Positions 7,934 to 16,670 of a DNA stretch of 42,209 bases are shown here, in pieces; the first letter of the stretch is position 1, and each line of letters begins with the position of its first letter. This stretch comes from Pseudomonadota bacterium (lineage in GTDB: Bacteria; Pseudomonadota; Gammaproteobacteria; Burkholderiales; Sulfuriferulaceae), in assembly GCA_021795395.1 (NCBI GenBank), contig JAJYPN010000023.1, positions 1 through 42,209 of the forward strand. Reading direction: 5' to 3'. Made by a program: the position numbers and the translations under genes. The notes below the pieces were generated by a model that saw only the letters and a list, made by a program, of their open reading frames with translations, was not told where the DNA came from and did no database searches.

Positions 7934-9019
7934 TTATTGCTGCCGCTCGCCGGTGTAGCCCGGAGGGCGTAACAAGCCATGGCGTTCCAGGGATAGTGTG
8001 AAATCATCCGAGAGCAGAAGTTGCAACAGGATGTCGCGCGCCTGAGCTTGCGTGGACGACCAATGTCCCTTGATCGCCGCGACGTAACGCACGTCGGTTC
8101 TGTTGCCGGGCAATGGCTGCGGATCTTCGGTCGTACCGCCTAGCGGCACGATCTCGAAGAGATCGGGAAACGTTTCAACAGTGTAGCGACCGAGGTGGTA
8201 CAAAATGATCGCTGCATCGGCTTTGCCGTAAGCGACCGACCACGGCTCGTCCCGATGATGGATACGATAGCCCGTCAACCATTTGTCGGGATCGCCGCTG
8301 GCGCCGTTAAAAATCGTATTAATCAGTTTTTTGGCTGTCCAGCCGGGCGGCGGGTGTTTATCGGCTTTGGCGATGTTATAGATGGCATTTCGATAACTGA
8401 TATAGGCTCCCGGTTCGCCTTCTGGATTGGGGGTGACCAGGTGTACGCCCGTTCTGCCCAGATCCCAGACCGATACGATGTGTTTGGGATTGCCTTTTTT
8501 GACCAGGATGACATCGCCGCGATCCTCGTATAGCGGTATCGGTCGGCCGTCGGCGTAACCCTGGGCTACCAGTTTGTCGATTGCCGCCTTCGATCCGACC
8601 GCAACACTGGGCCGGCAATTCATGTTCAGGTTGTCAAATCGGACGGTTCCGCTTTTCAGTTGCGGGATAAAAATGGGAGGGCTGGTGGTATAAAGCACAT
8701 TATGCCAGGCGATATGATGGGCTGACAGGCTGCGCAGCAGCAGCGGCCATATATCGCGCAACACCATGTGATAATTGCCTTCGGTCGACAGCACGAGATC
8801 GCAGCTCGTGACCTGGCCGTGCAAATCGTAGAGCACGTTCGAATCGGGGTCATGCAAATCGGGTCCGGCAGGGGACGTATCCACGGGCCAGGCCAGCAAT
8901 TGCGGCGTATCGACCACAGGTTTGCCGGCGATCGGCGGCATTTCGGCGTGCGCTGACACAACTGAAACCAGTAAAACAAGCCACGTCAAACTGGCGCCGG
9001 GCATCATTCGAACGCTCAT
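7934..9019 (-). CDS. Solitary periplasmic substrate-binding protein (type 2 fold)
   Basis: The 361-residue product begins with a clear signal peptide (MSVRMMPGASLTWLVLLVSV, cleaved after about AHA). I chose this ATG at 9019 over an upstream in-frame start at 9067 because AGGAAG precedes it at the right distance and the hydrophobic core then sits at the N-terminus. The mature part has the pattern of ModA/PhnD-like binding proteins: DVILVKKGNPKHI, a WDLG segment and a LVTPNPEGEPGAY ligand-loop-like stretch. No ABC permease or ATPase gene is adjacent. The ligand is unknown; an oxyanion is one possibility. It may work as a stand-alone sensor or serve a transporter encoded elsewhere. Confidence 0.7.
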   Translation of the reverse strand: MSVRMMPGASLTWLVLLVSVVSAHAEMPPIAGKPVVDTPQLLAWPVDTSPAGPDLHDPDSNVLYDLHGQVTSCDLVLSTEGNYHMVLRDIWPLLLRSLSAHHIAWHNVLYTTSPPIFIPQLKSGTVRFDNLNMNCRPSVAVGSKAAIDKLVAQGYADGRPIPLYEDRGDVILVKKGNPKHIVSVWDLGRTGVHLVTPNPEGEPGAYISYRNAIYNIAKADKHPPPGWTAKKLINTIFNGASGDPDKWLTGYRIHHRDEPWSVAYGKADAAIILYHLGRYTVETFPDLFEIVPLGGTTEDPQPLPGNRTDVRYVAAIKGHWSSTQAQARDILLQLLLSDDFTLSLERHGLLRPPGYTGERQQ

Positions 9020-9178
9020 GCTATCTTCCTTCTGGTCCTTGGGAAGGACGACCGATGCCGTCCGCACTCTATGTTAAGTTCATAGGCGATGTGTGGCAAG
9101 GGATTACAGGTCGGCCATGTAAAAAATATTACGGAGGCCAGGTAAAGCGATTGCAATGACAAGACGTAAGGCATGCAA

Positions 9179-9295: not shown

Positions 9296-11518
9296 GTGAG
9301 TACCAGTCATAAGGTAATTGAACCCAGTCATGATCTTCCCGAATTTTGCCGGGGCATCCAGTATTTTGCCGAATCCATGCCGGATTTCGAGCGTTACGCG
9401 GCGCAGCCGTGTTTGTCGGCAAAGGTTCCGGGGGTAACGGCGGCCGACGATGAAACTGCGGCTTACCAGACCTTATTGATGGCGGACGCGCTGCGTTATT
9501 TGACCTTGCAGGTCACCGGGGCGAAATCGTCGGGGCATCCCGGCGGTTTCGCCAGCAGCGCTGAAGCATACGCCGCGATGGTAATGCTCGGGCATACCAA
9601 TATCGTGACCGAGGTCGGACATCACGCGCCCGGATTCTACAGCGCGATGTTCCTCGATACCTCGCTGGAAAGCATGGGCATCGATACCGTACAAACCATG
9701 CGCGAACGGTTCCGTGAAACGCACGGCCTGCTCGGCCATCTATCAGGCGCCATACCGGGGCTGCTCGCACCTGCCGGCCCGCTGGGGCAAGGCCAGCATT
9801 TCGCGATGGCCGGTGCATTGCTGCATCCGGGCAAGCTGTTTCCGGTGACGATAGGTGACGGGGGCCTGGGCGAACCCTACATCATGAGCGCGATGGGGCA
9901 TTTCAATACCGCTTATCCGCAGGCGACGAATTTCCTGCCGATACTGGTGTGGAACGGTTATTCGCAGGAACATCACAGCATGGTGTCGACCTGGGATAAC
10001 GACCGTATGGTCGCCTATTGGAAGGCGCATGGCTTCAAACATGTCTATCTGGTTGACGCCAAGGAATTCGACGACCGGAACCAGCCCGGCGCGTATGTCG
10101 ATAGTTCCCTGTTTGACTGGAAACAGCGTGTGACGTTCGCCGGCGCGGTGCTCAAAGCGTCAGCGGCGGCGGCGCAACATGCGCTAAACGGCGAGTTGTC
10201 CGTATTGATTCTAAAGCAGCTGAAGGGTACCGGCGTCCATGCGACCGGCTCCAAGTCGCATAATTTGTACGCTCATCACACGCTGGAGAGCGACGACGTC
10301 AAAGCCGGCTTGCAGCGGCGCGCTCTGTCGACCGCAGCCTGGCAACTGGTGCGCGAGAATTTCCGCCACGCCGGTGGCGGCCCTGCAGCCAAAACCGTGG
10401 TGACGGAATTCGAGCTGGCGATCCCCGAGTTGGGACCATTGCCGCTGACCGAATTCGAAATCGGCAAGGAAAATAAAATCCCGACCACCGCATTCGGCGA
10501 AGTGGTCGGTGTGGTCGGCAAGCGCGACCCGCGTTTCATTGTCACCAATGCCGACGGCAACGAAGCGTCGGCGATGGCGAACATCAACAAGGCGCTGACG
10601 ATACGTCATCCCACCGCCGACGAACTGTACTTCCAGGGCCCGAACGGGCAAGTGTATGAACCGCTCAACGAAGACGCCTGTGCGGGTCTGGCTGCGGCGG
10701 TTTCCCTGTTCGGCGGACGGTCGTTGTGGTGCTCGTACGAATCCTTTGTCATCAACGGATTGCCGATCTGGCAGACGGTAATTCAGGCGATGGCCGAGCT
10801 GCGCCGCAAAACGCCGAGCACGATCACACTGTTTACCGCCGGCGCACTGGAACAGGGACGCAACGGCTGGACGCACCAGCGCCCGGAGGTCGAGGCCTAT
10901 TTCGCCGCCATGATGCGTAACGGCAACGTCTTTCCGCTATTCCCGACCGATGCCAACTCGATACAGGTCGCGTACGACTGGGCGTTGCAGACGTATAACA
11001 AGGGCATAGTCATTACCGCTTCCAAATCCCCGCTGCCGGTACGCACCACGCTCGCTCAAAGCCGTCAGGCCGTCGAGGACGGCGCGATCAGCCTGCTCGA
11101 TAGCGAAGGCAAAGGTAAAGTCGTATTTGCCGTAACCGGCGACTTGGTGTTGCTGCCGGTATTCGAAGCGGCAGAACAACTGGCCAAGCAAGGTATCGGC
11201 GTACGCATCGTCTCCGTTGTCAACCCGCGTCGCCTGTATCGTCCCGGCGACATTGCCTGGAATACGGTATCGCAACCGGACGGCAGATTCATGAGCGATG
11301 CCGGTTTCGACGCGCTGTTTCATGGCGACGTCGTGCTGGCGGTATCGGGCGGCCCGTCGGCGATGCTCGAACCTGTACTGTTGCGCTCGCGTGCCGCTCG
11401 ACGCGAAACATTTTGCTGGCAGCGCGGCGAAACTACCGCCAGCGCGGGGCAATTGTTCGATCTCAACGGCATGAATGCGAAGACCATGCAACAACGTGCA
11501 TTGGCGTTGCTGGGCTGA
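9296..11518 (+). CDS. Transketolase/phosphoketolase-superfamily thiamine-diphosphate enzyme
   Basis: The 740-residue product starts at GTG 9296, with AAAGGA 5 nt before it. The N-terminal half is transketolase-like: SSGHPGG (78-84), GPLGQG (161-166), and the ThDP-binding motif GDG (187-189) with its Asn at 220. The middle domain is closer to phosphoketolases: YESF (481-484) and NGWTHQ (523-528), followed by FPTDANS. It is therefore neither a standard transketolase (about 660 residues) nor a standard phosphoketolase (about 800). Related proteins have been annotated as phosphoketolase-like or as xylulose 5-phosphate 3-epimerase. It is the first gene of an operon with a four-carbon acid sugar kinase and glycolate oxidase. 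By inference it transfers a two-carbon ketol unit from a sugar phosphate, perhaps to glyoxylate. Confidence 0.75.
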   Translation: MSTSHKVIEPSHDLPEFCRGIQYFAESMPDFERYAAQPCLSAKVPGVTAADDETAAYQTLLMADALRYLTLQVTGAKSSGHPGGFASSAEAYAAMVMLGHTNIVTEVGHHAPGFYSAMFLDTSLESMGIDTVQTMRERFRETHGLLGHLSGAIPGLLAPAGPLGQGQHFAMAGALLHPGKLFPVTIGDGGLGEPYIMSAMGHFNTAYPQATNFLPILVWNGYSQEHHSMVSTWDNDRMVAYWKAHGFKHVYLVDAKEFDDRNQPGAYVDSSLFDWKQRVTFAGAVLKASAAAAQHALNGELSVLILKQLKGTGVHATGSKSHNLYAHHTLESDDVKAGLQRRALSTAAWQLVRENFRHAGGGPAAKTVVTEFELAIPELGPLPLTEFEIGKENKIPTTAFGEVVGVVGKRDPRFIVTNADGNEASAMANINKALTIRHPTADELYFQGPNGQVYEPLNEDACAGLAAAVSLFGGRSLWCSYESFVINGLPIWQTVIQAMAELRRKTPSTITLFTAGALEQGRNGWTHQRPEVEAYFAAMMRNGNVFPLFPTDANSIQVAYDWALQTYNKGIVITASKSPLPVRTTLAQSRQAVEDGAISLLDSEGKGKVVFAVTGDLVLLPVFEAAEQLAKQGIGVRIVSVVNPRRLYRPGDIAWNTVSQPDGRFMSDAGFDALFHGDVVLAVSGGPSAMLEPVLLRSRAARRETFCWQRGETTASAGQLFDLNGMNAKTMQQRALALLG

Positions 11519-11582
11519 AAGCAAGAGTAAGACCGGCGGCTTTGGCGGCTGCAGGTGAATCTTGATGGATAAGGTGTAAACG

Positions 11583-12911
11583 ATGTCGCCAAAAATTATC
11601 GTATTCGATGACGATCCCACGGGCTCGCAGACTGTGCACGGTTGCTTGCTGCTGAGCCGTTGGGACGTTGACACTTTGAAAATCGGCTTGAGCGACGCCT
11701 CGCAGCTGATGTTCGTGTTGACCAATACGCGCGGCATGAGTGCTAAGGATGCGGAACGAATCACGCGAGAGGCCTGCCGCAATCTGAAAACGGCGATGCA
11801 GGGTTTCGATCGCCCGGCACTGTTCGTCAGCCGTTCCGATTCGACGCTGCGCGGCCATTATCCGGTGGAAACCGATGTGATGGCGGAAGAGCTCGGTCCT
11901 TTCGATGCGCATTTCCTGGTGCCGGCGTTTTTCGAGGGCGGTCGCACGACGATAGATAGCGTGCATTATCTGCGGGTGGACGGCAAACCGGTACCGGTGC
12001 ACGAAACCGAATTTGCACGCGACTCCGTATTCGGTTACCGCCACAGCTATTTACCCGATTATGTCGAAGAGAAGACCCGCGGCAGGATTAAAGCCGATAG
12101 CGTGCAACGGTTTACGCTGGCCGATATCCGCAGCGGTACGCTTGAGCGGCTGATAGCGCTGCACGGCAATGCCTGTTGCGTGGTCGATGCCGAGCGGCAA
12201 GCGGATCTCGGCCGTTTTGCCGACGATCTCGAGCGCGCCGCAGCTCAGGGCAAGCGCTTTCTGTTCCGCAGCGCGGCGAGCTTGCTCACGGCGCTGGCCA
12301 AACTTCCGCCGCAGCCGGTTCCGGCCGAAGACATGCACCGTTATGTAACCGATCATCGCCCCGGAATCTTTGTGGTCGGCTCGCATGTTAAAAAAACCAC
12401 CGAGCAGTTGCAGTTTTTGCTGCGGCAGCCGGGTATCGAGGCGGTGGAAGTGGATGTCGGCCGGATGCCCGGGCATAGTGCGGAGTTATTGCAGGAAGTT
12501 TCGACCAAGGTATTGCAGGCGCATCGGAGCGGTCTGACGCCGGTAATCTATACCAGCAGGACCGAACGGCAATTTGCCGATCAGGCGGAGCGTCTGGCGT
12601 TCGGCGAGCATGTCTCTGGCTTCCTAATGGACGTTGTGCGCCGCTTGCCCGCAACGATCGGCTTTATCGTCAGCAAAGGCGGCATTACTTCCAACGACAT
12701 GCTAAGCACCGGACTGGCGTTACCGGCAGCGCGACTGGCGGGACAGATCCTCGCCGGTTGCAGCGTCGTGCTGACGCCTGACGATCATGTTTTTCCGCGG
12801 ATACCGGTGGTCATTTTCCCCGGTAACGTTGGCGATGCGAGCGCGCTGACCGAAGTCTGGCAACGTCTGACCGGCGTATCGGCCGGGCAGCAGGTTCGCG
12901 GCGATTCATGA
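11583..12911 (+). CDS. Four-carbon acid sugar kinase family protein (OtnK/DUF1537)
   Basis: The 442-residue product begins IIVFDDDPTGSQTVHG, the hallmark of the N-terminal substrate-binding domain (PF07005). Its C-terminal nucleotide-binding domain (PF17042) shows FIVSKGGITSNDML and FPGNVGDASAL. Characterised members phosphorylate four-carbon acid sugars such as 3-oxo-tetronate (OtnK), D-erythronate or D-threonate, at O4 using ATP. It lies 64 nt after the TPP enzyme gene, and its stop overlaps the glcD start by 4 nt (ATGA), so it is tied to glycolate oxidation. No dehydrogenase, aldolase-type decarboxylase (OtnC) or isomerase of the usual tetronate pathways is next to it. That suggests its substrate is made another way. 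Confidence 0.85.
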   Translation: MSPKIIVFDDDPTGSQTVHGCLLLSRWDVDTLKIGLSDASQLMFVLTNTRGMSAKDAERITREACRNLKTAMQGFDRPALFVSRSDSTLRGHYPVETDVMAEELGPFDAHFLVPAFFEGGRTTIDSVHYLRVDGKPVPVHETEFARDSVFGYRHSYLPDYVEEKTRGRIKADSVQRFTLADIRSGTLERLIALHGNACCVVDAERQADLGRFADDLERAAAQGKRFLFRSAASLLTALAKLPPQPVPAEDMHRYVTDHRPGIFVVGSHVKKTTEQLQFLLRQPGIEAVEVDVGRMPGHSAELLQEVSTKVLQAHRSGLTPVIYTSRTERQFADQAERLAFGEHVSGFLMDVVRRLPATIGFIVSKGGITSNDMLSTGLALPAARLAGQILAGCSVVLTPDDHVFPRIPVVIFPGNVGDASALTEVWQRLTGVSAGQQVRGDS

Positions 12912-14362
12912 TTGCGGATTCGGTTATCCGCGATTTACGGGCGTTATTGCCGTCAGCTGCGGTATTAACCGCCGACGAAGATACTGCGGTGTACGAATCG
13001 GACGGATTGTCGGCGTACCGGTGTCGGCCGGGCGCCGTCGTTTTGCCGGAAACCGAGACGCAGGTGATTGCGATTCTGCGGCTCTGCCATGCCGCCGGTG
13101 TGCCGGTTATCGCCCGCGGATCGGGCACCGGCTTGTCGGGCGGCGCATTGCCGCGCGAGGACAGCGTCCTGCTCGGGCTGGCGAAGCTGAATAAAATACT
13201 GCACCTCGATCCTCTGGCGCGCAGCGCACGCGTCCAGCCGGGCGTGCGCAATCTGGCGATCTCTGGTGAGGCTGCGGCTTACGGACTGTATTATGCCCCC
13301 GATCCGTCGTCGCAGATTGCGTGTTCGATAGGCGGCAATGTGGCTGAAAATTCCGGCGGCGTGCATTGCCTTAAATACGGTTTGACGGTACACAATGTGC
13401 TCGGTGTGCGGGCGGTGACGATAGACGGCGAAATACTGCAACTCGGCGGCGATTGCCTCGACAGCCCCGGTTACGATTTGCTGGCGTTGCTGCACGGTTC
13501 GGAAGGCATGCTGGCGGTCATTACCGAAATCACCGTCAAGCTGCTACCCAAGCCGGAACATGCGCAGGTGATCCTGGCCGCGTTCGATTCGGTCGAAACG
13601 GCGGGCGCGGCGGTGGGCGCAATCATTGCCGGCGGTATTTTACCGGCGGGACTGGAAATGATGGACCGTCCGGCGATACACGCGGCCGAAGCGTTCATTC
13701 ACGCCAATTATCCGCTCGATGCGGCGGCGATACTACTGGTCGAAGTCGACGGCACGACGGAAGAGATGGCGGAAGATCTGCGCTGCGTGCACGATATATT
13801 GGCCGCTAACGGCGCGACTTCTGCGCGTACCGCCGTTGACGACACCGAACGCCTGCGTTTCTGGGCGGGACGCAAGAACGCGTTCCCGGCGGTAGGCCGT
13901 TTGTCGCCGGATTATTATTGTATGGACGGCACGATTCCGCGTCGCGCTTTGCCCGCGGTATTGTACGGAATCGAAGTGCTGTCCGAGGAATACGGTCTGC
14001 GCGTCGCCAATGTGTTTCATGCCGGCGACGGCAATCTGCACCCATTGATTCTTTACGACGCCAATATTCCCGGCGAGTTGCATAAAACCGAGCAACTGGG
14101 CGCACGCATCCTCGAACTGTGCGTGCAGTACGGCGGCACCATTACCGGCGAACACGGTGTGGGAATGGAAAAAATCGACCAGATGTGCGTGCAATTCCGT
14201 GCGCTGGAATTGGCCGCGTTTCACGGCATAAAGGCCGCGTTCGATCCGGCCGGTTTGCTCAACCCCGGCAAAGCGGTGCCGACCTTGCAGCGTTGCGCTG
14301 AACTGGGAGCGATGCACGTGCACGCCGGGCAACTCAGCCATCCGCATTTGCCGAGGTTCTGA
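12908..14362 (+). CDS. glcD: Glycolate oxidase FAD-binding subunit GlcD
   Basis: The 484-residue FAD-linked oxidase has the PCMH-type FAD domain at its N-terminus (VPVIARGSGTGLSGGALP, about 65-82). The family's C-terminal signatures are FHAGDGNLHPLILYD and GGTITGEHGVGMEK. GlcD is the catalytic subunit of the GlcDEF complex, oxidising glycolate (or D-lactate) to glyoxylate and passing electrons through GlcF to the quinone pool. The start overlaps the kinase stop (ATGA) and its stop overlaps the glcE start by one base (TGATG). The gene set argues for glycolate over D-lactate as substrate, though the sequence alone does not exclude lactate. Confidence 0.93.
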   Translation: MIADSVIRDLRALLPSAAVLTADEDTAVYESDGLSAYRCRPGAVVLPETETQVIAILRLCHAAGVPVIARGSGTGLSGGALPREDSVLLGLAKLNKILHLDPLARSARVQPGVRNLAISGEAAAYGLYYAPDPSSQIACSIGGNVAENSGGVHCLKYGLTVHNVLGVRAVTIDGEILQLGGDCLDSPGYDLLALLHGSEGMLAVITEITVKLLPKPEHAQVILAAFDSVETAGAAVGAIIAGGILPAGLEMMDRPAIHAAEAFIHANYPLDAAAILLVEVDGTTEEMAEDLRCVHDILAANGATSARTAVDDTERLRFWAGRKNAFPAVGRLSPDYYCMDGTIPRRALPAVLYGIEVLSEEYGLRVANVFHAGDGNLHPLILYDANIPGELHKTEQLGARILELCVQYGGTITGEHGVGMEKIDQMCVQFRALELAAFHGIKAAFDPAGLLNPGKAVPTLQRCAELGAMHVHAGQLSHPHLPRF

Positions 14363-15408
14363 TGCAAACGCTGGTCGATCAGGTGAAGGACGCTTATCTC
14401 GCGCGAAGAATGTTGCAAATTCGCGGCGGCGGCAGCAAGGACTGGTACGGCAATGCCGCGCAAGGATCGGTCATCGACGTGTCAGGTCACAGCGGTATCG
14501 TCGAATACGCACCCGCCGAACTGGTATTGACCGCCAAAGCGGGGACGAGGCTGGCGGAAATCGAAACGGTGCTCGCCGCCAATAACCAGATGCTGAGCTT
14601 CGAGCCGCCGCATTACGGCGACAGCGCCACCTTGGGGGGTACGCTGGCGTGCGGCTTCTCCGGAGCGCGCCGGCCTTACAGCGGCAGCGCCCGCGACGCC
14701 GTGCTGGGCGTGCAAATTCTCGACGGCCGCGGCGACCTGCTCAATTTCGGCGGCAAGGTCATCAAAAATGTGGCGGGCTACGATATCTCGCGTCTGACGG
14801 TCGGCGCGCTGGGTACGCTGGGTATCATTTTACAGGCGTCGGTCAAAGTGGTGCCGCGACCGGCGGCGACCGTGACTTTGCAATACGAACTCGACCAGGC
14901 GGCGAGCATCGTGCGCATGAACGAATTGGCCGGCCAGCCGCTGCCGCTCACTGCGGCGGCGTGGATAAACGGGGTGCTGAGCCTGCGGCTGGAAGGCAAT
15001 GCGGCTGCGGTTCTTGCCGCGCAAGCCAAACTGGGCGGTGACATTTTGGATCATGCTGCGGATTTCTGGCTGGCGGCGCGCGAGCACACCGCGCCTTTTT
15101 TTGCCGGTGAGACGCCGCTGTGGCGCTTATCGGTGCCGCCGACAGTACCGCCGCTGGACTTGCCCGGCAAACAGGCCGTGACCTGGGGCGGCGCGCAACG
15201 CTGGCTCAAATCGGCAACGCCGGCGGCATCGATATACGCCGCTGCCGCCCGAATCGGCGGCCATGCCGCTCTGTATCGCGGCGCTCGCCCGCAAACCGGC
15301 GTATTCCACGCGTTGCCCGCCGCCGTCATGGCTTTGCACCGGCGGCTGAAAACGCAATTCGATCCGCACGGCATTTTAAACCGCGGCCGGCTCTATTCGG
15401 ACTTCTAA
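14362..15408 (+). CDS. glcE: Glycolate oxidase FAD-binding subunit GlcE
   Basis: The 348-residue second FAD-binding subunit is shorter than GlcD, as usual. RGGGSKDWYG sits at about residues 20-29, and the FAD loop FEPPHYGDSATLGGTLACGFSG is followed by GKVIKNVAGYDISRLTVGALGTLG. GlcE associates with GlcD and GlcF at the inner membrane and is required for activity of the complex. Coupling is tight: a one-base overlap with glcD, and glcF begins 2 nt after its stop. Length and motifs are normal. Confidence 0.92.
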   Translation: MQTLVDQVKDAYLARRMLQIRGGGSKDWYGNAAQGSVIDVSGHSGIVEYAPAELVLTAKAGTRLAEIETVLAANNQMLSFEPPHYGDSATLGGTLACGFSGARRPYSGSARDAVLGVQILDGRGDLLNFGGKVIKNVAGYDISRLTVGALGTLGIILQASVKVVPRPAATVTLQYELDQAASIVRMNELAGQPLPLTAAAWINGVLSLRLEGNAAAVLAAQAKLGGDILDHAADFWLAAREHTAPFFAGETPLWRLSVPPTVPPLDLPGKQAVTWGGAQRWLKSATPAASIYAAAARIGGHAALYRGARPQTGVFHALPAAVMALHRRLKTQFDPHGILNRGRLYSDF

Positions 15409-15410
15409 AC

Positions 15411-16670
15411 ATGCAAACGCATCTTGCCGACTTTATACGCGATAGCGACACCGGAGCTGAAGCGGAAAAAATCCTCCGCAGTTGCGTGCATTGCGGTTTC
15501 TGTCTGGCGACGTGCCCGACCTATCAACTTTTAGGCGACGAGCTCGATTCGCCGCGCGGGCGGATTTTTCTGATCAAGCAATATCTGGAAAGCGGTGTCG
15601 CGACAGCCAAAACCCAGTTGCATCTCGACCGCTGCCTGACCTGCCGCAACTGCGAAACCACCTGTCCGTCGGGGGTGCAGTATGCGCGTTTGCTCGATAT
15701 CGGCCGGGACTTGATAGAACGCCAGGTTCCACGCAGCGCACAGGCTAACCTGCAACGCTATTTGCTGCGCCGGGTGTTGCCGAACAAACCCTTGTTTACC
15801 GGGCTGACCGCACTGGGCCGTGCCGCGAGACCGTTATTGAATGCAAAACTGCAGGCTAAATTACCTGCCACGCCAACGACTTCCGCACTTCCCCCACCGC
15901 GTCATAACCGCCGCATGCTGCTGCTCGAAGGCTGCGTACAGCCTGCGCTGGCGCCGAATATTAATGCGGCGGCGGCTCGCGTGCTGGACCGGATCGGCAT
16001 TTCGCTGGTCGTTGCCGACCGGGCAGGCTGTTGCGGAGCAGTAAGCTATCATCTCAACGCGCAGGACGAAGGACTCGATTACATGCGCCGCAATATCGAC
16101 GCCTGGTGGCCGCACGTCGAAGCGGGTGCCGAAGCGGTGGTGATGACGGCTTCCGGATGCGGCGTTACGGTAAAAGAATACGGTCATTATTTGCGGCATG
16201 ATCCAGCGTATGCCGAAAAGGCGGCACGGATTTCGGCTTTGACGCGCGATCTCGTCGAAATCGTGCTGGCGGAAGCCGAGGCGCATCTGCCAGAATTCGT
16301 TCGGTCGGATACGGCTTCGGTCAGAGTGGCTTTTCATGCGCCATGTACCTTGCAGCATGGGCAAAAGATTGTCGGGGTGGCGGAAACCTTGCTGCGCCGG
16401 GCGGGGTTTACCGTATTGCCGGTGAGCGAATCGCATCTATGTTGTGGTTCCGCGGGCACCTATTCGATTTTGCAAGCGGAATTGGCGACGCAACTGCGCG
16501 ACCGCAAATTGATGCATTTGCAAACGGACGCCCCGGAAATGATTGCGACGGCCAATATCGGCTGTTTGCTGCATTTGCAATCGGGCTCGGCTACGCCGGT
16601 GCGCCACTGGATAGAATTGCTCGATAGCGTATACGTCAATTGCGAGAAAACGGCAGACCGGCGACCTTAA
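15411..16670 (+). CDS. glcF: Glycolate oxidase iron-sulfur subunit GlcF
   Basis: The 419-residue product carries two [4Fe-4S] cluster motifs, CVHCGFCLATCP and CLTCRNCETTCPSG. Two CCG domains follow, each with a paired-Cys CCG motif (AGCCGAV and LCCGSAG). This is the electron-transfer subunit of GlcDEF. I place the start at ATG 15411, 2 nt after the glcE stop. The frame stays open upstream to 15120, but that part lies inside glcE and has no family similarity. The gene ends 7 nt before the stop of the convergent hemY, with no terminator visible between them. Confidence 0.93.
   Translation: MQTHLADFIRDSDTGAEAEKILRSCVHCGFCLATCPTYQLLGDELDSPRGRIFLIKQYLESGVATAKTQLHLDRCLTCRNCETTCPSGVQYARLLDIGRDLIERQVPRSAQANLQRYLLRRVLPNKPLFTGLTALGRAARPLLNAKLQAKLPATPTTSALPPPRHNRRMLLLEGCVQPALAPNINAAAARVLDRIGISLVVADRAGCCGAVSYHLNAQDEGLDYMRRNIDAWWPHVEAGAEAVVMTASGCGVTVKEYGHYLRHDPAYAEKAARISALTRDLVEIVLAEAEAHLPEFVRSDTASVRVAFHAPCTLQHGQKIVGVAETLLRRAGFTVLPVSESHLCCGSAGTYSILQAELATQLRDRKLMHLQTDAPEMIATANIGCLLHLQSGSATPVRHWIELLDSVYVNCEKTADRRP

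Follow-up and report, generated by a model that had tools for sequence, protein, structure and literature searches.

A transketolase-like enzyme and a DUF1537-family kinase as a conserved gene pair: a candidate glycolate/glyoxylate salvage module of Calvin-cycle bacteria

Glyoxylate formed from glycolate is known to be salvaged by the C2 cycle, the Gcl glycerate pathway, the malate cycle or the β-hydroxyaspartate cycle, all of which start from glycolate oxidase (GlcDEF) and glyoxylate. The operon described here, at positions 9296-16670 of the window (the whole analyzed stretch of DNA, 42,209 nucleotides long, from a member of the Sulfuriferulaceae), has the same start. It encodes the three Glc subunits, preceded by a divergent thiamine diphosphate (ThDP) enzyme of the transketolase/phosphoketolase superfamily that forms a conserved family of its own, here called TK-like, and by a kinase of the four-carbon acid-sugar kinase family (former DUF1537), here called KIN. 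Given their linkage, their co-occurrence where they are unlinked and their association with RuBisCO, TK-like and KIN are a conserved functional module, which in our sample of the order is tied to RuBisCO and glycolate oxidation. Further resemblances to known glyoxylate salvage are a BhcR-like regulator (one locus was scanned; homologs occur at 42 of 51 loci) and a malate synthase gene in two clusters. The difference lies in the new ThDP enzyme and kinase, with Gcl found in none and malate synthase in four of the 14 order genomes that encode TK-like. The parts belong to known superfamilies and the GlcDEF salvage setting is known as well, while TK-like and KIN are uncharacterized.

The closest described enzymes and pathways each match in part. 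Phosphoketolases (XFP, e.g., PDB 3ahc) share with TK-like the fold, the XFP domains and the residues at the Asn523 and Lys577 places, but differ in overall sequence, in the place of His548 and in family model scores, and TK-like is genomically tied to a sugar-acid kinase. Transketolase (Escherichia coli TktA) shares the fold and five catalytic places and differs at six others. In the catabolism of L-threonate and D-erythronate (LtnD-OtnI-OtnK-OtnC), a DUF1537 kinase likewise serves the breakdown of a four-carbon acid, with dihydroxyacetone phosphate (DHAP) and CO2 as the predicted end; unlike there, none of LtnD, OtnI and OtnC is among the window proteins scanned, a ThDP enzyme stands in their place, and the kinase is only remotely similar. 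L-threonate oxidation ends with a 3-oxo-tetronate kinase and a decarboxylase that yield DHAP (PMC12540250; here and below, statements on the literature refer to the matched passages of the cited papers). The designed erythrulose shunt, a photorespiration bypass in which transketolase acts on glycolaldehyde (PMC6298115), also joins a photorespiratory C2 compound to a Calvin-cycle sugar phosphate by ketol condensation; it reduces glycolate to glycolaldehyde and conserves carbon, whereas the route considered here would use glyoxylate as acceptor, lose one CO2 and consist of natural parts. Transketolase, glyoxylate and DUF1537 occur together in a synthetic-pathway paper (PMC10079672), and another paper discusses glyoxylate with pyruvate dehydrogenase, not transketolase (PMC12655727). 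Among the matches listed for the CC-licensed PMC literature, we found no title or abstract opening with a cluster like this one or a natural ketol transfer to glyoxylate.

The gene pair and its genomic associations

All five genes of the operon lie on the plus strand. TK-like (9296-11518, GTG start, 740 aa) is followed after 64 nt by KIN (11583-12911, 442 aa), which overlaps by 4 nt with the gene for GlcD, the FAD subunit of glycolate oxidase/dehydrogenase (12908-14362, 484 aa). The latter overlaps by 1 nt with the gene for the FAD-binding subunit GlcE (14362-15408, 348 aa), and 2 nt separate this from the gene for the iron-sulfur subunit GlcF (15411-16670, 419 aa), whose start we set at the ATG at 15411, while the mechanical open reading frame (ORF) begins at 15120. 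These coordinates, taken from the ORFs, agree with the overlaps and the gap given in a preliminary description of this DNA. Its assignment of all three glycolate oxidase subunits stands for GlcE (490.7 bits versus the NCBIfam equivalog cut-off of 284, PRK11282) and GlcF (669.3 versus 333, PRK11274); GlcD scores strongly but just under its own cut-offs (PRK11230, 800.5 versus 897 bits; TIGR00387, 535.5 versus 567.9 bits). In a record titled Sulfuriferula multivorans (L032), these five genes recur in unchanged order, and their proteins are 71-89% identical to those of the window.

We examined an order sample of 150 genomes, the window's included, a phylum sample of 398 genomes, and a named set formed by the closest 80 of 453 TK-like relatives in a GTDB-based contig collection (by record title, 51 non-cyanobacterial and 29 cyanobacterial loci). 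The 51 loci and the TK-like genomes of the order partly overlap (e.g., L036, L020) and are never summed. TK-like is uncommon, since it is present in 14 of the 150 order genomes and 3 of the 398 phylum genomes. KIN adjoins it in all 14, and GlcD, GlcE and GlcF lie in the same neighborhood in 13 of them, window included; in L027 they lie before TK-like, and in L026 no GlcDEF was found within the 19.9 kb examined. The third phylum match (G253), from outside the order, has KIN 15 nt behind TK-like and a flank too short for Glc genes. The 51 non-cyanobacterial loci stem from Thiobacillus, Sulfuriferula, Candidatus Nitrotoga, Gallionella and other, mostly uncultured proteobacteria. KIN is directly downstream of TK-like at 50 of them, and the matched parts of the two genes lie a median of 112 nt apart; the exception (L064) is a locus that stops at the contig edge, and no KIN was found elsewhere in that assembly. 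Downstream of TK-like, 32 of these loci carry all three Glc genes, six a part and 13 none, with at most 5.2 kb of DNA available at seven of the 13. The gene order is thus kept far beyond the window's genome and is therefore not due to chance. The survey proposed in the preliminary description bore out the linkage of the ThDP enzyme, the kinase and GlcDEF, and a restriction to this single genome, which would have spoken against the idea, is clearly false.

Two genomes of the window's genus (G079, G121) encode a TK-like protein 66-68% identical to that of the window, while genomes of other families reach 80%; a third genome of the genus (G034) yielded no TK-like. The identities in G079 and G121 make an exchange of the cluster between lineages probable. 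In G091 (85% complete, 6% contamination), TK-like was found on two contigs.

The cyanobacterial loci are arranged differently: KIN adjoins TK-like at one of the 29 named loci and at none of 30 further loci (1.5-kb flanks; one from a genome already counted). Whole-genome searches of the 29 named TK-like genomes found exactly one KIN in each, 60-67% identical; nine of these matches are interrupted by one or two stop codons, beside which lie open frames of at least 442 aa. Among 194 genomes of the cyanobacterial phylum, 70 had a TK-like and 88 a KIN, with 72 of the 88 KINs being close (at least 57% identical) and 16 distant (at most 47%), one of the latter broken. A close KIN is present in 69 of the 70 genomes with TK-like versus 3 of the 124 without (the two together in 69, TK-like alone in 1, a close KIN alone in 3, neither in 121; Fisher P = 1e-47); when all 88 KIN genomes are counted, the two occur together in 69, TK-like alone in 1, KIN alone in 19 and neither in 105. 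Because the threshold between close and distant was chosen after viewing the list and Fisher P values ignore shared ancestry, we put the weight on the counts. In fifteen genomes of the phylum (1.6-3.4 Mb), no TK-like was found and the sole KIN is of the distant kind (38-47% identical), and in G705 the KIN match is in pieces with several stops. A telling exception to the missing linkage is an Acaryochloris contig from a metagenome-assembled genome (L089), on which KIN is followed by TK-like and this by a GlcF-like gene that scores 309.5 bits against the GlcF model cut-off of 333.

The pairwise distances of TK-like and KIN correlate (r = 0.88 for 89 pairs, a value raised by duplicate genomes among them, and r = 0.69 for the 29 cyanobacterial pairs; neither was reached in 2,000 permutations), which vertical descent alone would produce. 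Identity between phyla is alike for both proteins (66% for TK-like and 62% for KIN), and the high level of this identity suggests that the two may have moved together.

RuBisCO was counted in the order sample only. True RuBisCO was found in all 14 TK-like genomes versus 43 of the other 136, and in 10 further genomes every match was RuBisCO-like and scored under 240 bits, a dividing line drawn after viewing the list; the co-occurrence that the preliminary description proposed to look for is thus found. One RuBisCO large-subunit gene was identified in the window's assembly (2.54 Mb, 93% complete). Of the 150 order genomes, 11 gave a Gcl match, nine of these over the cut-off, and no TK-like genome was among them; neither Gcl nor malate synthase was found in the window's genome. 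At two of the 13 order neighborhoods (L019, L022), TK-like is directly preceded on its own strand by a malate synthase gene, which adds another glyoxylate enzyme to the cluster and which we count for a salvage function.

Two divergent enzymes

TK-like passes the Pfam gathering cut-offs for XFP (43.6 versus 22 bits), XFP_N (33.6 versus 23.7) and Transket_pyr (33.8 versus 27). It falls far below the transketolase equivalog TIGR00232 (45.6 bits, cut-off 682). With the six NCBIfam phosphoketolase models listed it reaches at most 89.5 bits, where 962 would be needed, and even the lowest of their cut-offs is 777. Its AlphaFold model (pLDDT 80.7, pTM 0.84; segments below pLDDT 50 include 142-159 and 516-526) resembles phosphoketolases (TM 0.68-0.73) and transketolases, with 17-19% identity among the 50 matches listed. 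A transketolase/phosphoketolase-like ThDP enzyme, as first proposed, is therefore the right description at the level of domains, fold and five catalytic residues, and neither family name can be given by the NCBIfam cut-offs. We had also considered the cyanobacterial phosphoketolase 2 (sll0529) as a counterpart and withdrew it, as its grouping with Nostoc and fungal phosphoketolases (PMC7744508) does not match the distance of TK-like from phosphoketolase models. A search of plasmid records gave no TK-like match at E ≤ 1e-30.

Residues were mapped by aligning 30 TK-like sequences against TktA with MAFFT, with hhalign and a phosphoketolase alignment for comparison. His81, His109, His148, Glu459 and His527 correspond to TktA H26, H66, H100, E411 and H473 and are kept in all 30; we take the four His residues to be catalytic or cofactor residues and E411 to activate ThDP. 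At the places of R358, S385, H461 and R520, which are presumably sugar-phosphate-binding residues of TktA, TK-like has T/A/S397, A424 (N418 by hhalign), A515 and K577, respectively. Positions that we assume to be cofactor-related are less evenly aligned: the places of H258 and H261 are taken by K320 and N323 in MAFFT, while hhalign puts H322 at H261, and the GDG...N motif, misplaced in the MAFFT alignment, is found at G187-D188-G189 and N220 by the phosphoketolase alignment. Arg522, invariant in the 30 sequences, occupies both the place of TktA E468 and that of the presumed active-site His548 of phosphoketolases. The place beside it, that of the acceptor-side TktA Asp469, is now Asn523, and in the alignments Asn523 and Lys577 match phosphoketolase, not transketolase, Lys577 standing where we assume the phosphate-binding Lys of phosphoketolases to be. 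Because the model is unreliable at 516-526, the active-site geometry around Arg522 is an inference. We read TK-like as a ketol-transfer or ketolase-type enzyme whose substrate pocket has been remodeled and may suit a small acceptor with a carboxyl group.

No PF07005 gene other than KIN was found in the window's assembly. KIN contains both domains of the former DUF1537 family (SBD_N, 200 bits; NBD_C, 131 bits). Its predicted model (pLDDT 87.3) has eight structural matches at E ≤ 0.001. Six are titled DUF1537 (best 5dmh), and the other two are chains of 3dqq, titled putative tRNA synthase, which we take to be of the same DUF1537 family. In two Candidatus Nitrotoga loci (L076:12332-17120 and L092:12269-15369), two KIN copies lie near each other, the second with DDGPAGSQ as its first motif, not DDDPTGSQ. 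In L076 the copies are separated by GlcF and what by eye is a short GlcD-like fragment, and no Glc gene matched in L092; the cluster may be eroding and duplicating there.

The linked regulator and neighboring genes

A divergent IclR-type regulator precedes TK-like at 42 of the 51 non-cyanobacterial named loci and in eight of the 13 order neighborhoods; none was found at the 29 cyanobacterial named loci. The one regulator that was scanned matches BhcR best, with 170 bits against the NCBIfam cut-off of 350. IclR and AllR are glyoxylate-responsive, and the assimilation of glyoxylate is under the control of BhcR (PMC11323563). The same paper lists five oxygen-binding residues for IclR, of which the places of D212, S239 and S241 are invariant in the 30 regulators aligned (30 of 36 cluster ORFs, six being left out by length), while 160 and 161 differ, as do the hydrophobic-patch places 146, 154 and 220. 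We dropped the idea of a proven glyoxylate-responsive regulator for these differences and the low BhcR score, and regard its link to glyoxylate, seen at the residue level, as suggestive only. Apart from the operon genes and this regulator, no family was seen to recur in most loci (smaller clusters are unannotated).

In the window, a solute-binding-protein gene (SBP_bac_11, 7934-9067, minus strand) lies divergently upstream of TK-like, where many relatives carry the IclR regulator. At some loci without GlcDEF (L080, 4585-5865 and 18414-21798, with similar genes in L033 and L103), TK-like and KIN lie, as judged by eye, near an ABC transporter of the branched-chain-amino-acid type and an aldehyde dehydrogenase. 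L080 further encodes a MOFRL-type glycerate kinase, a 2-hydroxyacid dehydrogenase and a protein resembling tartronate semialdehyde reductase (382.9 bits, cut-off 340.75). In L090 (7779-8957, minus strand), a class II fructose-bisphosphate-aldolase-like protein with a Dabb domain is encoded beside the IclR regulator of the TK-like/KIN locus and is a possible decarboxylase or aldolase partner.

A candidate route from glyoxylate to triose phosphate

Gene content, linkage, co-occurrence and, in the order sample, the tie to RuBisCO are observed; every chemical step of the following route is inferred, that of GlcDEF by homology. GlcDEF would oxidize glycolate, derived from the 2-phosphoglycolate of RuBisCO, to glyoxylate. 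TK-like would then transfer a two-carbon ketol unit, most simply from a ketose phosphate of the Calvin cycle, to glyoxylate; 3-oxo-tetronate and a shortened aldose phosphate would result. KIN would phosphorylate 3-oxo-tetronate at O4, and the 4-phosphate would lose CO2, spontaneously or by an unlinked enzyme, to give DHAP. The predicted net reaction is glyoxylate + xylulose 5-phosphate + ATP → glyceraldehyde 3-phosphate + DHAP + CO2 + ADP, and the route would need no ammonia, amino-group transfer, NADH or tartronate semialdehyde. A 3-oxo acid of this kind may self-decarboxylate, for which the product of PdxA would be a parallel. One CO2 would be released per glyoxylate, compared with one per two glyoxylates in the C2 and glycerate routes, which makes the route less carbon-efficient but short.

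The attraction of this scheme is that ketol transfer to glyoxylate would yield exactly the known OtnK substrate, 3-oxo-tetronate. We retain it because we see no other equally simple short route that joins the product of GlcDEF, a ketol-transfer enzyme and an acid-sugar kinase. That tetronate dehydrogenase and OtnC are missing beside the kinase, as already noted in the preliminary description, holds for the seven proteins scanned (the operon and two genes upstream), among which OtnI was not found either; likewise, the lack of a detected PF00596 (OtnC-family) gene in the window's assembly fits a substrate that does not come from the classical tetronate route.

Several findings weigh against the scheme. 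KIN is only 27% identical to E. coli YgbK (OtnK) over 181 aa (E = 4e-5), their profile alignment (probability 92.7 over 266 columns) indicates a remote homolog only, and the D-threonate kinase model gives 75 bits against a cut-off of 450. The proposed OtnK/DUF1537-family kinase is thus confirmed in its domains and fold and is remote from OtnK itself; as KIN belongs to a remote DUF1537 subfamily, its substrate is not readable from homology. The presumed phosphate-binding residues of TktA are replaced in 30 of 30 TK-like sequences, which makes a ketose-phosphate donor uncertain. The decarboxylation step is left without a conserved gene, because searches of five of the 14 TK-like order genomes, the window's and four others, found no PF00596 member, and OtnC was rejected as a conserved partner of the module on this ground; some PF00596 member occurs in 26 of the 29 cyanobacterial TK-like genomes. 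Moreover, 28 of the 29 cyanobacterial named loci are unlinked to KIN or glycolate genes, six of the 51 non-cyanobacterial loci lack GlcDEF despite 10 kb of downstream DNA, and the IclR-type regulator is absent at the window and its nearest kin.

The comparison with other glyoxylate routes also tempers the scheme. In the order sample, TK-like was not found in 43 genomes with RuBisCO, so RuBisCO is often present without it. Against these 43, the TK-like genomes differ significantly neither in Gcl (0/14 versus 7/43, P = 0.18) nor in malate synthase (4/14 versus 22/43, P = 0.22), and we dropped the loss of both as a signature. All 14 TK-like genomes were found to encode the glycine cleavage P-protein GcvP, as were 33 of the 43 others, so that glyoxylate could pass through glycine; for the window's genome, with Gcl and malate synthase both undetected, a glycine route can be envisaged from its GcvP. 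Co-occurrence with a complete standard route, which would have told against a new one, is therefore a mixed picture.

Three other readings compete with the scheme. The pair might handle another acid, such as tetronate, erythronate or a side product of RuBisCO or the Calvin cycle, with the link to glycolate by co-regulation only: GlcDEF (or nothing) would oxidize a related hydroxy acid, KIN would phosphorylate it and the ThDP enzyme would cleave or rearrange it. The membership of KIN in an acid-sugar kinase family, the shortfall of GlcD at the equivalog cut-offs, the six loci with room yet no GlcDEF and the 15 cyanobacterial-phylum genomes with only a distant KIN all agree with it, but GlcE and GlcF exceed the glycolate oxidase cut-offs, no tetronate dehydrogenase or isomerase is among the window proteins scanned, and malate synthase and a BhcR-like regulator join the cluster in some genomes. 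The L080 reductase can be read both ways, since it also matches the L-threonate dehydrogenase model (196 bits, cut-off 350) but matches best, and over the cut-off, as tartronate semialdehyde reductase. We consider this reading unlikely, though worth keeping in mind.

The other two concern TK-like itself. With glyoxylate still as acceptor and the kinase step unchanged, the donor could be something other than a sugar phosphate, e.g., hydroxypyruvate, whose use would be irreversible through loss of CO2. The replacement of the four presumed phosphate-binding residues next to five conserved catalytic His/Glu residues would be explained in this way; Lys577, however, keeps the place of what we take to be the phosphate-binding Lys of phosphoketolases, and no donor-making gene stands out among the recurring neighbors, so we judge such a donor improbable. 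A shade less probable still is that TK-like is a phosphoketolase that forms acetyl phosphate from xylulose 5-phosphate; once turned into acetyl-CoA, this would meet the glyoxylate from GlcDEF at malate synthase in a malate-cycle salvage. Its best structural match is a phosphoketolase, the XFP domains pass their cut-offs, Lys577 and Asn523 agree with phosphoketolase, and L019 and L022 have malate synthase directly upstream. Yet malate synthase is restricted to four of the 14 TK-like genomes and was not found in the window's, Arg522 invariantly occupies the presumed place of His548, each of the six NCBIfam phosphoketolase models listed stays far below its cut-off, and the constant partner KIN would be left without a role.

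On balance, TK-like and KIN almost certainly act in one pathway, and this pathway is probably glycolate/glyoxylate salvage. That glyoxylate would be the acceptor of the ThDP enzyme and 3-oxo-tetronate the substrate of the kinase has, from the sequence evidence, an even chance. For the full scheme, a glycolate/glyoxylate salvage module of Calvin-cycle bacteria with ketol transfer to glyoxylate, we estimate a probability of about 45%; the interpretation in the preliminary description is overall partly supported.

According to a comparative survey, photorespiration outside cyanobacteria did not look tailored to the Calvin cycle in particular, and genomes with this cycle seldom had an annotated glycolate oxidase and were even depleted of it; the authors consider that the need may simply be smaller in non-cyanobacterial Calvin-cycle bacteria (PMC7895386). 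In our reading, 2-phosphoglycolate disposal in these bacteria is unsettled. We tentatively suggest, somewhat short of even odds, that cyanobacteria and many chemolithoautotrophs may possess a natural, so far unrecognized photorespiratory route, free of nitrogen and of tartronate semialdehyde, in which a dedicated ThDP transferase joins glyoxylate and a ketol unit to 3-oxo-tetronate, a dedicated kinase phosphorylates this, and the carbon re-enters the Calvin cycle as triose phosphate with release of CO2. If this is true, a module spread across chemolithoautotrophs and cyanobacteria would fill part of the gap in 2-phosphoglycolate disposal, two uncharacterized families of primary producers would gain functions, and photorespiration engineering would have a natural two-enzyme part at its disposal.

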